The translations under genes and the position numbers were made by a program. Under the pieces are notes generated by a model. The model was given only the letters and a program-made list of their open reading frames with translations, searched no databases and had not been told where the DNA came from. DNA of 64,000 nucleotides from Leuctra nigra. Taxonomy: Eukaryota > Arthropoda > Insecta > Plecoptera > Leuctridae. Positions 19,001 to 28,000 of this stretch are shown here, piece by piece; position 1 is the stretch's first letter, and the number at the start of each line of letters is the position of its first letter. Location: assembly GCA_934045905.1 (NCBI GenBank), contig OW203764.1, positions 37,879,434-37,943,433 of the forward strand, read 5' to 3'.

Positions 19001-22000
19001 TTCACTTCTTTCTTAATACTACTATAATTATCTAAAGACTTAATTTCTTGAGGCAACTGATTGAAAATAAAAGGGACAGCGTAATTTAAACATCGCTTTC
19101 CATACTTATTAGTAAATCGGGGGAGTATTAAAGAAACTGGATTCACCATTGATCTAGTGGCCCTGGAATGATTGTAGATAATTTTAAGTTCGTTCGAATA
19201 AAAATATTTGATTATGAATTTATATTTATACAAATCAGATATTGGAAGGAAATTAAGATGATCGTACATTAAGAGAGTGTTATTGTTACATTTGAGCTTA
19301 ACGGCATCAGGGGTCAAATTCTTGATCATTCTATCCTGTATAGATCGAATGACTTGAAGGTGAACATTGGATGTGCTGCCCCAAGCAAGTAAACCGTAAG
19401 AAATTACAGATTCCACTAAAGCAGAATATATTAATTTTAAAATTTTAACAGGTAAAAAAGATTTTACATGAAACAATTGAAACGAGCAAGAACGTAATTT
19501 GGAAGCTAAGCTATTTATATGAGGTCTCCAGGAAAAGTATTTATCAATTGTTATACCTAAATATAAACAAGTATCAACCTCCTCAATCAGATCAGTACAA
19601 GTACACAAAGCAAAATCTAATGTATGTAAACAATTAAAACTATGACACAATAATGTTACAGGGTCTAACCTACTTGCAATTGAAGGTGAACAAATGTGAA
19701 TTAACTTAGTTTTTGTACTATTTACTAACAAATCATTATCATGAGTCCACATCAACAATGTATTGAAATCAGACTGAAGAATTATCTGAGCCTGTTCTAA
19801 ATTTTTATGAGCAGATACTAGAACAGTGTCATCTGCGTACATATAAATTTTACAATTTTGAATATAACTAGGCATGTTATTCACATATAAGAGATAAAGA
19901 ATTGGACCCAATATTGACCCTTGAGGTACACCAGAATTACATACCCCAGCTATACTCACAGTTTCACCAACTTTAACTATAATTTGCCTATCCGTTAAAT
20001 AATTGTGAAACCAACATAAGAGGGGACCCCGAATACCAGCATTTTCAAGAGATGTTAACAATTTTGTATGGTTTAACGTATCAAATGCCTTTGAAAAGTC
20101 TATAAAAAGAGCCAGAACGTGCATATTCTCATTTAATTTAGAATTTATGTAATCAGCGAAAAGAGTAAGCAGATCAGTGGTGCTTCTACCTTTTTGAAAA
20201 CCAAACTGATGTGAATTGATGATTTTAAACTTTGATAAATAATCAGTTAATATTTTTGCAACACACCGCTCCATAATTTTCTCAATAGTAGGGAGCAAAG
20301 CAATTGGTCGGTAATTATTGAACTCGAGGTGGTCACCTTTTTTGTAAACAGGTCGAATTATTGACATTTTTAATTTAGATATAACAACACCTTCTGAAAT
20401 TGAAGTATTAATAATTTTAGCAATAACTGGGCTTACTTTTTCCGCTATATTTTTCAAATCAGTTATTCGTATCCTGTCAAAACCCGGTTGTTTGTTAGAG
20501 TTTAATGAATTTATAATATAATTTATGCGGGTGGCACACACTGGAGGCATGTATAAAGACTGAAGCTGAACTACATCATAATTGTAACTTAAAGTATGAA
20601 TGTTGCAAACATGTTTCAAAGATTCTACCTCACTGATGAAACAGTGCAAAAATCTATCTGCAATCTGCTTATCATTGAATTGTTTCCCTAAATATTTACT
20701 TAAAACCTGATCTACAGTATCCTTTTTCTTTTTACCAAGTACATCATTAATAGATTGCCATGTGTCCTTAATACTTCCTCTAGACTTCTCAAAGACACCT
20801 GTATAATAAATTTTTTTGGCATTACGAATAGCATTATTTATTTTATTTCTGAATTTTTTGTACTCGACGCCATAGTAAAATTTCAATACACCGTTACAAT
20901 TCTTCCATTTCTTAAATAGACGGTCTCTTTCTTTACAGGATTTAATAATATCAGCCGTCAACCAAAACTTTTTCTTACGTTTCCCCAGCTGGTAATTTAG
21001 GTAATAAGATTCATCATAACAATAATCAAACTTGGCAGTTAGGTTGTCAAAAACGTCAGTGCATGTATCATATGTCATAGGCTCAAGCCAATCACACTCT
21101 CTCAACAAACGTGTTAATTTAACTTCATTAATGCATTTTTTTACTGGAATTTGATGTTGAAATTTCTGAGATGAGCCATGAAACATGATTCCGGCAATAA
21201 TTATATAATGATCAGATATCTTGGTAGTGTACACAGCCGACTTAATATCATGGCAACTAGACTTAATAAAAATGTGATCAATGCAAGTACTCGTAAAAAC
21301 ATCACCTCTACATTCCTCGCGTGTTGCATCATTAATACAATTAATATAACCATTTGCAGCCATTAGCGATAAATATGAACGAACATTGCAATCATCTGAA
21401 TCGAACAGATTTAAATTCATATCTCCTAATATTACAATATTATTTACTTTGGAATAATTTCCAATTGATTGATTGATACAACTTTGACTAATGCTACTAT
21501 ACATGTTCCAATTATTAATAATAGTCAATGTTCTTAAGTGCACTTATTCGTCGGTTGTTGTAGTTTTATAAGTTCATGTCGGAATAATGGACTTCATCCT
21601 CTTCCTCAATTCTTTATTGTTCTGGGGAAGTGGCTCCACGACGCTGGCAGGCAGGTTGTTCCACAATCTGATCCCATGCGCTGCGAGAGAGAACTTGCCA
21701 GTGTCTGTTCGCGGCTGCAACAGACGAATTTTCTCGGTGTGGTCTCCTCTCGCGGTGTAATTCGGTCTCTGCAGTAGCTCACCTAGCTCCTCCCAAGCCT
21801 CTTCATGGCAGTAAGCCCTGTATATAGCGATAGCTCTGGATGCGTCTCGCCGGTCTTCCAGAGACTCCCACTTCAGTGATTTTATGAGTTCAGTGGGGCC
21901 AGGAGAGTTTCCGAATGAACTCTCAACATACCGTGCAGCCCTCCTCTGTACCATATCCAGCTGGTGTTTATTCACCATGGTATATGGACTCCACACACTG

Positions 22001-25000
22001 GCACAATATTCCATCTGTGGACGAACAAGGGTGAGATATGCCAGTTCCTTTGCCTTCTTTGCTGCACCTTTGAGGTTCCTCATGACGAACTGCAGTGATT
22101 TGGATGCCTTCTTTGAAGTTACATCAATGTGGTTATTCCACTTCAGGTCATCAGACAGCCACACTCCAAGGTACTTAGCATCCTTTGTGGGATCAATTGG
22201 TAGGTTCCCAAGCTGGTACTGGTACTGTATCCGTGTTTTCCTAGTGCTGAATGACATCTTGATGGTCTTATCGATGTTGATTCGCATCTGATTCAGGTCC
22301 ACCCACTTGGCTAGTTCTTCGAGGTCTTCCTGGAGCTGCCCGCAGTCATTGGTGTTGTTGACAGTCCTGTAGATTATACAGTCGTCTGCGAACAGCCGCA
22401 ATTTGGAGTGCAAGATACACTGTGGAAGATCGTTCATAAAGATCAAGAAGAGGAGTGGACCGAGAACACTTCCCTGGGGTACTCCTGATGTCACTGTAAT
22501 TGGCAGGGAGATTTCTCCTTCAATCCTTACTACTTGCTTTCTGTTATTTAGAAAGCTCCATATCCACTTAATGACCTCCTTGTTAAGATTTAGTTGGGAT
22601 ATCTTTTCCATAAGGAGGTCATGTGGCACTAAATCAAATGCTTTGGCAAAATCTATTAGGATGGCATCAACTTGCTTTGCTCTGAAGTCCACTTCTTGAA
22701 CTAGGTCTTGTGTAAGACCCACGAGACTAGCCTCACAAGAGTAGTGAGGTCGGAAGCCAAATTGACTTCTTGTGAAGAATTGAGTTTCGTCTAGGATTTG
22801 CCTGATTTGTTTTTCAATTATCTTCTCAAGTATTTTACATGGAATACAAGTTAGACTTATAGGCCTATAGTTGGAAACGGAGCTCTTACTACCACCCTTG
22901 TGTATTGGCGAGACAATTGCCATTGTCCAATCGGTGGGAAGGGTGCTTTCTTCTATCGATTGTGAAAAAATTATATGTAGATAGTCTAGTCCTGCCGATC
23001 CTGCAGTTTTTAGTAGATCTCCTGTGATACCGTCTGGACCAGCAGTAGTTCCAGGTTTTAGATTTTTAATAACATCCCATATTCCATGAGTACTAATCAC
23101 CAGGGGATTCGAATTATCTCCAACAATGGAAGGAGCTCTATGGTTCTTCGTTGAGAAAACATTTCCATAAAAGTCGTTGAGAGCGTTGGCTTTGTCTAGA
23201 TTTGTTGTTAGTATCTTATTGTTCAGTTTTATTGCTGGTATCGATCTTGAGCTGCATTTTTTGCTATTGATGTAGCTGTAAAACCTCTTCCAATTCGTTC
23301 TTGGGGCTCCATCTTCCATCAATAAGTTAGCCATATATTTGTCATAGCAGAATCTCTTGGCTTCAATCAACTTGTTTGAAAGGGTCTTGAAACGTGCCTT
23401 GTCAGCATGGGACCGCTTGCGATGTGAGTAGGCTCTCTGAACTTCTTTCTTCAGATGTTTCACTTTATCATTATAGTAGATGGGATCACTGTTCTTCTTA
23501 ATTACTCTGTGCGGAATGAACTTGTCTCTTGCTTGCATGATGATTTTCTTAAACGACTCCCATTTTTCATTTATCGTAATATTATCTGATTTCCAAGCAA
23601 GAAAATTGCATCTCAGGAACTCTCCAAGGCCACGTCGGTCAGCTTTCTTGTACTGCCATGATGTTAAGGGCTCCATCTTGGGAATCGTGTGCAATGGGGT
23701 GAGTTCAAGGATGACTGCGTCGTGGTCACTAATACCTGGGACAACTTCTGTGTCCCACCATATTTCAGGTGGTTGAACAAGGATAACATCCAGAATATTA
23801 GAACTTCCATCTGTTTTGGTCCTCGTGCCCTCCTTAACAGTTTGTATAATATTAAAATTACTTTGCAATGAATTTACAAGTAACTGCGCATGATTTTGCC
23901 CACTTGGGTTATCACTGTCCCACTCAACATCAGGGAGGTTTAGATCTCCTCCTATGACTGTGTGAGCCGTCGAGTCAGTGTTGCACTTTAAGTCTAATAG
24001 AGTTGTATGAAGTTCCTCCATCAAGGTATAGTCATTCCTGTTGGGATTATAAGCACCAATCACCTGAACTTTTATATTGTCCTGTAGAATAACTGTCACA
24101 CAGAGTAGTTCAGCTGTAGCACTTGATGAATTAATGTGGGCTGAGAGTTCCTTTTTCACACATATGGCTATTCCACCACCCCGGCTCCCTCTATCCCGTC
24201 TGAATACTTGATACTCTGATACAGGAAATATTTCGTTGTCATGATGATCTGGCGTTAGCCAGGTTTCTGTAGCTATGACAATATCAGGCATATGAAGTTC
24301 TATAAGATCTTGAAACAGAAGTTGTTTATTATTCAAACTTCTACAATTAACCAGCAGTACTTTGAAGCGTCTGGTCGTTCCATGTTCTTTGCTTCTCATG
24401 ATGGTGGAGTCTCCCTCGTCCTCTCGCGAAAAAACCGCCGGACCATTACACCTGCTGGCCATGAGGCTGGATCATTCATGCTGGCTAGGAGTATGTGGTT
24501 TGCCGTGACTTTGAAGGAATTGAATGATTCACTTCTGTTTTGCAGCTGCTCACACTCAAACTCGTTACTTTTGTACTTCTTCACTAAGTACTCCTTCACA
24601 TCGGCTTGCGTGATGTTCTTTGCTATGCGGCTAATGTGGAAGTACACATTACGATGAACAGGTCTGAGAACATCTTCTTCACTACTCTTGCCAGTTCCAA
24701 CAATATAAGTCCTGCTAGTTCCCTTACGTCTCCTACCTTGGACTGTTGTGAAGCCATCGTCCTGGCTTGAGGGGATCCTCTCGTCCTTACTTGTGGAAGG
24801 AATCGGATTTTCAGTGTTCTGGAACAACGTACCACGTCCTTTGCCTCGATGTTTTCTTCTTGGTAGTGTACGGATAATGACTGCTATGTTAGTTCCAATG
24901 ATAGCTTCTTCTAGCATGCGTTTTACATTCGGCCACTCGAGTCTGTCTCGGAAACACCCGATTTTTGACATTCCAATAGATTTCACTCCGTTAGCTTGAC

Positions 25001-28000
25001 AGTAATCAATCATATTTTTAATGCAAACTTCCAAATTCTCTTCATCAGGTTTGTCCGCGTACAAGCTTTTTGTCACAAGATTGAAGATCAACCTGGTTTT
25101 TGTAAGTACCGGGGCACAATCTCCAATTTGCAGGTTAGATTCCTTGAGTGGTTCGACAATTGGAAACCGGTTTCTGAAAGACACTGCTATTCCACGACCT
25201 AGATGAACGTCACCTGAAATGCAGTGAGCTAAGGCCGTCGAGTCTGGCAGATCAAATATGTCCCCTGTTTCTTCACAGACTGTGCCTGGTGCAAAAACTT
25301 CAGCTAGCTTAGAACCCGAAGCTGTCTGGGTTACTGAAACTGTACCTTCTGCATAGACATCGGCATGATCGTAATCCAAAGCAGTCTGGGCAGCTGACGA
25401 AGAACTATTAGTGTCAATCCTTCCCATAGTAGTTTTCCCAGGTTTGTTTCTAAGATTCTTGCGTATCCCTGAAACTGGATTCACTGTAGGAATTGGTGCT
25501 TTTATCTGCTCAGTCTGAAGTGGGGTTATAGGTGCCCATGTGCAGACTTTACAGACCCATTTAATGCATTCCTTGGAGGAAATCACCTTAAATTCTATTT
25601 CAGAAAGATCTGAACACTTAAGGTGAAATATTGCTCCACAATGTTTGTCACACTTGATGGCCTGATCACTTTGCAGTATACGTTTTAAGCAATTAGAACA
25701 TTCCAAGGTCTGTTGCTCAGACGCCATCTTGTCCTTTTTGTCCATCTTGCCAGAAGTGGCTCCATCACGTATCACTTATTTGTGGGAATTGCCCCAAGCC
25801 TTTTTTTGTGGCGCCCAAAAACAACTAATGTCACTTGATATCATATGTTACTAGCACCCTCTAACGAAATATGAAGCAATTTAATATTGACTTTTTTCGG
25901 TCGAATTGTCTTAAAGATGGCTAATCAGCTTAGGTATACTCATTTTGTACACAAAGAATGGGCGGATGTCATGACGGCCCCCAAATTTCGATAACATCAT
26001 TCTTACTTTGACTGTAGCTTCTACTAAATCAGTAATATTTTACTTTAAAATCCAATATGTTGTATATTTTTTTTGGTAAAAATTGAAACAAAAAATTAGA
26101 AAAGGGGGCCGTCAGCCCATAACTACCTAGATATCTAATGAATATTCTCTGCAAGTTTTGTGTCATTTAGATAAACGGTTTTGTCTATATGAGATGTCTA
26201 AAGTAACGTGCATTTTACACATTTGAAAATGTCCCGGATTTTTTTGTGGTGCCCAAAAACGACTACTAATGTCATTTGATATCATATGTTACTAGCTCCC
26301 TCTAACGAAATTCGAAATATGAAGCAATTTAATATTGACTTTTTTTGGACGAAATTGCCTTAAAGATGGCTAATCAGCTTATACTTTTTAAAAAAGCGAA
26401 GCACCTTGCTAGTAACGCCAGTTGTAAACTGCTGTAAACTATAAGCAGTGCATTCAAAGAAGGTTGATTTTTTCAGGGGAAATTACTTTATTAATAATTA
26501 TGAAAAACTTAAGAATTAACAATGAAGTGTTCTCTTAACACAAAGTGAGTAAGAAAGTGAGGAATGACGTACCTCGCCTGGTCCATCCCCATGGTGAAGA
26601 CCTCGGGGAACGTGGAGCTGTTGGCCGCCATGGTGGCGAGCGCGTCTCCGCAGTAGAACATGGTCCCGAGCACCATCATCTTGCCGAGGCGCGGCTCGAT
26701 CGGCAGCTTGGCGAGGATGCGGCCCAGCGGAGTCAGCTCGTCGTTTGCGTCCAGACATTTCATCTCTACGCGATCACAAACAACAAACACATTCATTGTC
26801 ACTGAACACGGTGGATGTTGATGAATCACAAAATAAAGTATTTTCATTTGAGGAAATTAATCACTTTCAGCAGAAGCCATTGAAGTTAAGTCACTCCTTG
26901 ACTAATCAAGGGTTTTAATTAATAGATTTGCAAATTCCTCAATTTATTTTTTAATTTTACAACAATAAGACAACAGGAAAATGATAAATCCATGAATATA
27001 CAGTTTCAAATCTAATCAATAATATCTAGAGTAGATAGTATTTGCATTTTTGGGAACTGTAATTATGTATCTATTTAATTTAAATCAATAATTAAGATTT
27101 TACTTATAAAAACATGACTAATAACTGTAGATTCAATACTTATATTACAGTCACAATAAAATAGTGCAAATGTGCTCATTCGTTGAAAGGTGTCCGATTG
27201 ATTGAATTGTAAACAGTTTATGTAGCAAAGGGTTGGCTTGACCCCATTGAACGTAAAAACATGGAAGACTCCTTGCGGGCTCTCGCTACTGGGAAGAATG
27301 AATCACGACGGAATGAAGCCTGTTTCGGCAGGCAGCCGGTGCACTTGCCATTGTAGAATGTAGAGGCTGCCATGCTGAGGGGGACTTGGCGGGAGCAGAG
27401 TTAAGAGCGTGCAGTAATAACAAATCAATACTTTAGTCCAGGGCTGCCGCCACATACAAATTAATATCCTTTTAAAAAGCATGAAAAATCCGTAAAAATC
27501 CGTATGCCCATTAAAAACCTTTAAAATGATGTAAAACTCCCATATTTCAAGCACTAACTGGGCCACTTGACAGATAAGCTATTGAATTCCTCACGCAACA
27601 TGGGACATGAGAGAAGGGGGGTTGGGTTCTGGACTGACAGCTGTGGATGGAATGGTAATTTTGAATTCAGAATTATAAATATCTTTCTCCCCTTTCCAAC
27701 ACATTATTCATAATGAGCATAATAAATTTCAAAACTATAAGCACACACAAGAATAAGGGATGCAATCACAAATCAGGTCATTAACCCACGACCAGCTGCA
27801 AACAACTAACAAGTGGATGCCTCAGGAAGCGCGCGCCCCTAGACACTCGAGACATTGCTCAAGGTCGACCAGATTCCCCACCCCCCTTCCTCCCTCAACC
27901 ATTCACTCGCAACCATTTATTTGTAGTATAGCTAGCCTACTTACACAAAAGGGTGTTTTGAAACAATCTCTGCACTGAAAATTGTTGGACAGGAAACGAA

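Follow-up and report, generated by a model that had tools for sequence, protein, structure and literature searches.

The window analysed here is a stretch of 64,000 nucleotides from the plecopteran insect Leuctra nigra (assembly GCA_934045905.1, contig OW203764.1, forward-strand positions 37,879,434–37,943,433). It contains a long interspersed nuclear element (LINE), a retrotransposon without long terminal repeats (non-LTR) of ~4.3 kb, which lies on the minus strand at 21463–25742, as judged from its sequence and from the 5′ edges (n=14) and 3′ end (n=3) of other copies. The first open reading frame (ORF1) of this element encodes a macrodomain of the type found in the human hydrolase TARG1 (also OARD1 or C6orf130). 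An original prediction, made from the sequence of the window, had proposed such a domain at this place. We searched the genome containing the window (536 Mb, 144 contigs) for further copies of the element and for other elements that carry the domain.

The window element and its macrodomain

The macrodomain comprises 143 residues (24858–25286; like all features of the element, on the minus strand). It matches human OARD1/TARG1 (PDB 2l8r) with an E-value of 4.4e-27 over residues 166–304 of a 459-residue frame, and its predicted fold is clearly TARG1-like; both the domain and the proposed structural check thus came out as the original prediction had expected. The catalytic dyad of TARG1 is Lys84/Asp125 (PMC9411070). 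Aligned to these residues are the Lys codon at 25068–25070 and the Asp codon at 24945–24947, which encode Lys236 and Asp277 of the 459-residue frame at a spacing of 41, just as predicted. Sequence and structural model together confirm a TARG1-type (ALC1-like) macrodomain with the Lys84/Asp125 dyad. The Pfam Macro profile (PF01661), which had been suggested as a check, gave 20.9 bits on ORF1 and so fell below its gathering cut-off of 22, although the TARG1 match is strong. NCBIfam DarG scored 35.3 bits (E 7e-9), well under its cut-off of 250. Of the pocket residues of TARG1, Gly43-Ile44 are retained. The position of Gly123, a residue of the ADP-ribose pocket (PMC5928194), is occupied in the alignment by a Phe (24951–24953) two residues before the catalytic Asp.

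ORF1 most likely spans 24396–25727 and encodes 443 amino acids from the ATG at 25727. The open frame runs on to a GTG at 25775, from which the original prediction had counted its 459 residues. The family has 15 further near-full-length copies, and we compared the 5′ edges of 14 of them, leaving out L016, whose 5′ end is rearranged (loci are numbered from the window element, L001). In all 14, the junction with the flank lies a few bases 5′ of ATGGCGTCTGAG; the ATG of this sequence is present in 13 and lost in L013. Because the flanks of the copies differ upstream of that ATG, the GTG lies in flanking DNA; with the likely start at the ATG, the dyad becomes Lys220/Asp261. The 3′ end was set by comparison with three other copies (six stretches were fetched, three of which included the end). 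The window element has the 3′ tail TCAATCAATCAA; other copies end in TAA-type repeats.

Upstream of the macrodomain, as predicted, ORF1 encodes a PHD finger (25539–25703). Its closest match in the PDB by phmmer is a Pygopus PHD (3zpv, E 8e-6); with the Pfam PHD profile it scored 17.8 bits, under the cut-off of 24. The C-terminal domain (24429–24656) has the order beta-alpha-beta-beta-alpha-beta in the model of the full ORF1, with block pLDDT values of 64–91, and can be called RRM-like by topology alone. No RRM match for ORF1 was found in Pfam or among the best 50 rows when the model of the entire ORF1 was run in a fold search, and no esterase match was found in the window element.

The second frame, ORF2 (21574–24399), is open from 24462 and has an ATG at 24399. 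It encodes an APE-type endonuclease domain (23713–24348; Pfam Exo_endo_phos_2/Exo_endo_phos, 1.6e-14) and a reverse transcriptase (RT) domain (22159–22893; Pfam RVT_1, 4.5e-36), in line with the ORF2 foreseen downstream. With both domains and no LTR, the element is a LINE of the APE-endonuclease (Jockey/CR1/L2) kind. The stop of ORF1 and the start of ORF2 share an ATGA overlap at 24396–24399, which suggests termination-reinitiation.

The window family has 16 near-full-length copies on 8 contigs, 97–100% identical in residues, and 15 of the 16 are stop-free. At the DNA level, copies L002–L016 are 99.4–99.97% identical to the window element over about 2.8 kb. Since the copies are near-identical and share the 5′ junction, the family is young, with an almost absent 5′ untranslated region. 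The dyad is unbroken in all 26 family loci that cover it; without L029 and L030, which duplicate L023 and L027, the count is 24 of 24. L027 carries one stop within the macrodomain. Mostly stop-free copies on several contigs, with the dyad intact, rule out an artefact or a lone decayed locus. The original prediction had itself raised the possibility of a single decaying locus; many copies and families proved to carry the domain.

Distribution among LINEs and Ty3/Gypsy-type elements

Genome searches returned overlapping lists of at least 115 matches with ORF1, at least 76 with Pfam Macro and at least 150 with human OARD1. Beyond the window family, we read 38 macrodomain-bearing loci, 18 in stretches of ~6 kb (L031–L048) and 20 in short stretches (L049–L068). 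Nineteen of these were taken as representatives and, with the window family (L001), form a table of 20 families; the remaining 19 are near-copies. The families share 24–66% pairwise identity and, together with L077, make up 21 distinct LINE macrodomains. Pfam Macro passed its cut-off of 22 bits in 12 of the 16 families of an ORF1 alignment, the exceptions being the window family, L032, L034 and L036.

All but three of the 18 long stretches have an RT motif downstream of the macrodomain; the three are L037, L047 and L048, for which none was found within the fetched sequence. In a tree restricted to ORF2s of this genome and containing long branches, 14 ORF2s of macrodomain-bearing LINEs (L042 and L045 were left out) fall into three deep clades. 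The modules around the macrodomain vary. A PHD-type N-terminus occurs in the window element, L034, L040, L043, L044, L046 and L048, of which only L048 and, narrowly, L044 reached the Pfam cut-off. L031, L033, L036, L037 and L039 instead have an N-terminal SAP module above the Pfam cut-off, and L032, L035, L038, L041 and L042 gave no Pfam match to PHD or SAP. After the macrodomain, a GDSL/SGNH esterase-type match is present in L039, L041, L042, L044, L046, L048 and L077, exceeding the cut-off in L039, L042, L046 and L077. By eye, the Asp that precedes the catalytic His motif of this esterase-type domain looks altered in L042, L046 and L048. Long in-frame tandem repeats, open in more than one frame, follow the macrodomain in ORF1 of L035, L038, L042 and L047.

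The domain also occurs in a second class of retroelement. Frames of at least 1000 residues account for 20 of the 150 rows listed from the OARD1 search. Three of these were read: L047, which is a LINE with tandem repeats, and two Ty3/Gypsy-type elements, L075 (C11:16655200-16660200, minus strand; macrodomain E 4.7e-39) and L076 (C104:32200-37000, minus strand; macrodomain E 2.5e-32). Both have very long frames, a gag-type frame being followed by one in which a TARG1-type macrodomain sits between an aspartic protease and RT. L075 exceeded the Pfam cut-offs for Ty3_capsid, zf-CCHC, Asp_protease_2, RVT_1 and RT_RNaseH, and by these coding domains (Gag with CCHC, protease, RT and RNase H) it classifies as a Ty3/Gypsy retrotransposon. 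In L076, the RVP_2 protease is over its cut-off and zf-CCHC and RVT_1 are below theirs; the stretch stops inside the RT. Pfam Macro scored under its cut-off of 22 in both elements. The Lys and Asp of the dyad are present in both.

The original prediction had envisaged a retrotransposon that acquired a host ADP-ribose hydrolase and kept it functional, perhaps so as to undo PARP-dependent marks at target-primed nicks or on its own ribonucleoprotein. This interpretation is supported in part. The domain, its catalytic pair and its recurrence stand; hydrolysis and a role at target-primed nicks are conjectural. The interpretation was too narrow, as the domain extends over three ORF2 clades and two Ty3/Gypsy-type elements, with exchange between elements.

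Constraint, exchange and origin

Lys84 and Asp125 are both retained in 20 of the 21 LINE macrodomains (19 of the 20 families, plus L077). Each is kept in 19 families and ranks among the ten best-conserved of the 141 columns in the 20-family alignment. The proportion of nonsynonymous differences (pN) is lower than that of synonymous differences (pS) in 190 of 190 family pairs, with 0.19 versus 0.82 in the closest pair. Stop-free sequences make up 143 of the 149 best-scored macrodomain matches of the OARD1 search (excluding the host exon described below). Selection that maintains the macrodomain in the ORF1 protein (ORF1p) is the best explanation for these sequence patterns. The almost invariable retention of the catalytic residues suggests that the elements use the domain against a host marking system, and catalysis is plausible in most families.

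Several observations weigh against this reading. In the L041 family (with copy L062) the dyad is lost, with Lys changed to Arg and Asp to Glu, while the domain is kept in a frame that is open in several copies. L049, a copy of the L033 family, has lost the Lys. The search favours top-scoring copies, so that open frames are over-represented. The synonymous substitution rate (dS) was saturated between families: among the ten closest pairs, NG86 left it undefined in eight and YN00 returned no estimate in any. Because of this saturation, we give pN and pS and no omega. Across seven related ORF1s (21 pairs), the best-kept part was the macrodomain in 10 pairs, the C-terminal part in 9, and the N-terminal part and the linker in 1 each; the macrodomain is therefore one of two well-kept parts and not uniformly the best. 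Finally, Gly123 is replaced in all five families of the macrodomain subclade that comprises the window family, L032, L034, L036 and L050 (support 100/99), by Phe, His, His, Tyr and Tyr; it is retained in the other 15 of the 20 families. In human TARG1, G43E, I44E and G123E are reported to abolish ADP-ribose binding and activity (PMC5928194). Since Gly123 is replaced in the window subclade and G123E abolishes binding by TARG1, catalysis in this subclade is uncertain.

The altered pocket could also mean that ORF1p uses the fold as a scaffold for binding nucleic acid or for assembly, with ADP-ribose playing no part. ORF1 proteins package RNA, and human TARG1 has been reported to bind RNA independently of its pocket (PMC5928194). 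The catalytic pair is, however, selectively retained across families as low as 24% identity, and we consider a role of this kind quite improbable.

A further alternative is that the macrodomain reads ADP-ribose without removing it, anchoring the ribonucleoprotein (RNP) at damaged DNA or at chromatin that carries ADP-ribose, so that it would act beside the PHD in choosing insertion sites. The retention of the domain despite the loss of Gly123 in the window subclade and of the dyad in L041 would fit this role, as would the adjoining PHD and SAP modules, which also suggest chromatin or DNA targeting, and the ALC1-like class is described as including readers (PMC7050489). Yet a pure reader does not need the dyad that is kept in 20 of 21 LINE and both Gypsy-type macrodomains, and Gly123 is itself a binding residue. 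On balance, reading without catalysis appears unlikely.

The macrodomain has a history partly separate from that of its host elements. L034 and L040 are 61% identical in the PHD, 36% in the macrodomain and 70% at the C-terminus, and the L034 macrodomain shares 50–55% identity with its counterparts in L036 and L032. With flanking parts that resemble L040 and a macrodomain that resembles L036 and L032, L034 shows that the domain has been replaced by exchange between elements. A core clade of the ORF2 tree (L032/L033/L034/L036/L040) was rejected on the macrodomain tree (p 0.0024). ORF2 clade A was barely rejected on the macrodomains (p 0.0485), and clades B (p 0.19) and C (p 0.32) were not. Many inner branches of the macrodomain trees are weakly supported.

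Asking whether all LINE macrodomains form one clade, we obtained an approximately unbiased (AU) test value, p-AU, of 0.199, and of 0.060 with more families, the two Gypsy-type rows and a host exon; neither rejects a single clade. A clade of all retroelement macrodomains was likewise not rejected (p 0.184). Of 33 OARD1-like proteins from a profile search, 8 were placed in the first tree and 7 in the larger one, in which 4 of the 9 rows treated as cellular are metagenome proteins. The host exon, L080 (C8:32877557-32877877, minus strand), is of OARD1 type and begins like a spliced exon, just behind a T-rich tract and an AG acceptor. Three other host OARD1 candidates, L078, L079 and L081, were short matches that turned out to be element remnants. 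The macrodomains of L040 and L077 group with the host exon (87/86), and this clustering suggests a second, later capture from the host. More than one acquisition of the macrodomain from the host may have occurred.

The presence of this exon, and the L040 and L077 macrodomains beside it, indicate that host capture may happen, as would be needed if a host OARD1 retrocopy or chimera were hitchhiking, roleless, in one element. Such an accident is already refuted: domains that are diverse, constrained and still in frame occur in the 21 families read, across three ORF2 clades and in both classes of element. We give this alternative almost no credence.

The sequence around the window element was also inspected. 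Downstream, at ~21200–21460 on the minus strand, the flank resembles by eye an endonuclease fragment of another LINE; because it reads in this way, the window LINE seems to be nested in an older LINE. The flank just upstream (25801–26381) contains two diverged copies of one stretch, ~445 bases apart. Beyond it, at 26512–26847 on the minus strand, an exon-like frame matches the DHX9/maleless helicase, a dosage compensation regulator (E 1.5e-25).

Possible roles and comparison with known systems

Among the roles considered, we rank first that of an eraser of ADP-ribose, with or without reading, and hold it to be somewhat probable. With its PHD and RRM-like parts, ORF1p would be a protein directed to chromatin and nucleic acids that has gained a built-in TARG1-type macrodomain. 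This module is shared by numerous LINE families and certain elements of Ty3/Gypsy type, and recombination moves it between elements. With ORF1p coating the RNP or positioned at the nicked target, its macrodomain would recognise host-written ADP-ribose and, in most families, remove it. Its targets could be ORF1p or ORF2p, acidic residues of chromatin proteins, or phosphate ends of RNA or cDNA. As a result, PARP- or sirtuin-type marks would no longer stall or silence insertion. Binding, hydrolysis, target and benefit are all steps that we infer.

Published work offers points of contact for such an activity. TARG1 is reported to act on Asp/Glu-linked ADP-ribose, nucleic-acid ends and thymidine (PMC7050489, PMC8501950). 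Reviews describe how SIRT6 mono-ADP-ribosylates KAP1 and thereby silences L1, and how PARP1 and PARP2 act at L1 integration sites and aid insertion in human cells (PMC8535693, PMC4695847). Since insertion of human L1 is promoted by PARP1/2, an eraser might also be detrimental to the element that carries it. In mosquito infection, the ADP-ribose binding of an alphavirus macrodomain is reported to matter, and its hydrolysis not (PMC12632316); eraser and reader roles are therefore both realistic. More broadly, host ADP-ribosylation might be a strong barrier to retrotransposition in this animal, against which LINEs of several clades and Ty3/Gypsy-type elements would have recruited, retained and exchanged the TARG1-type eraser of their host as a counter-defence, much as RNA viruses carry macrodomains. 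We put this forward tentatively, with rather less than even confidence. If true, it would extend the virus-type arms race over ADP-ribose to resident retrotransposons. The roles of CR1/L2-type ORF1 proteins are poorly known, and a domain directed at ADP-ribose that recurs in them under constraint, and also occurs in another class of retroelement, points to one particular host pathway. The 143-residue domain makes this pathway directly testable, since assays for its human relative are standard and inactive mutants of that protein are known.

Relatives of ORF1 in other species were sought with a search that detects only sequences sharing exact words, and none was found among 4178 candidates, a negative that does not speak for their absence. 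Under the same requirement, the 16-family ORF1 profile retrieved one fungal macrodomain protein, with 9% of the query covered, and the macrodomain profile 33 OARD1-like proteins among 698 candidates, including snail and fish proteins and a 95-residue beetle protein. A literature search over titles and the openings of abstracts, with most subscription literature outside its reach, found no report of a LINE ORF1 or a Ty3/Gypsy element with a macrodomain.

Human TARG1, an ALC1-like macrodomain hydrolase, is the closest point of reference for the domain itself. In contrast to it, the window domain lies inside a retrotransposon ORF1, has Phe in place of Gly123 and is a putative enzyme. DarG, whose antitoxin macrodomain is bacterial, is described as keeping only the Lys of the dyad (PMC7050489). 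Coronaviruses, hepatitis E virus, alphaviruses and rubella virus, the last two represented by structures, resemble the elements described here as RNA-based agents with an ADP-ribose-directed macrodomain. Among retroelements, fish endogenous retroviruses carry macrodomain genes as additional open reading frames (Basta et al. 2009, cited in PMC4977317); these are vertebrate retroviruses, neither LINEs nor Ty3/Gypsy elements.

For the element as a whole, the nearest counterparts are the Type III ORF1s of CR1/L2 LINEs, which combine a PHD with a C-terminal RRM (Metcalfe and Casane, 2014; PMC4120745). Pygopus PHDs are among the top structures for the PHDs of those ORF1s, and the N-terminal PHD finger of the window ORF1 likewise finds its closest structure among them. 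The two also share an ORF2 with APE endonuclease and RT, and a reticulate, modular ORF1; the C-terminal part of the window ORF1 resembles an RRM by topology alone. The difference is the macrodomain between the PHD and the RRM-like part: the main text of that survey of CR1/L2/Jockey ORF1s contains no word starting with 'macro' or 'ADP'. Type IV ORF1s with an SGNH esterase (ZfL2-1; PMC3905857) provide a precedent for the uptake of an enzyme domain by ORF1. A GDSL/SGNH match after the macrodomain is likewise present in several of the families described here, though not in the window element; the abstract of that study mentions no macrodomain. Compared with these systems, what is new here is an enzyme-type macrodomain module within a modular LINE ORF1, and its presence in two classes of element.

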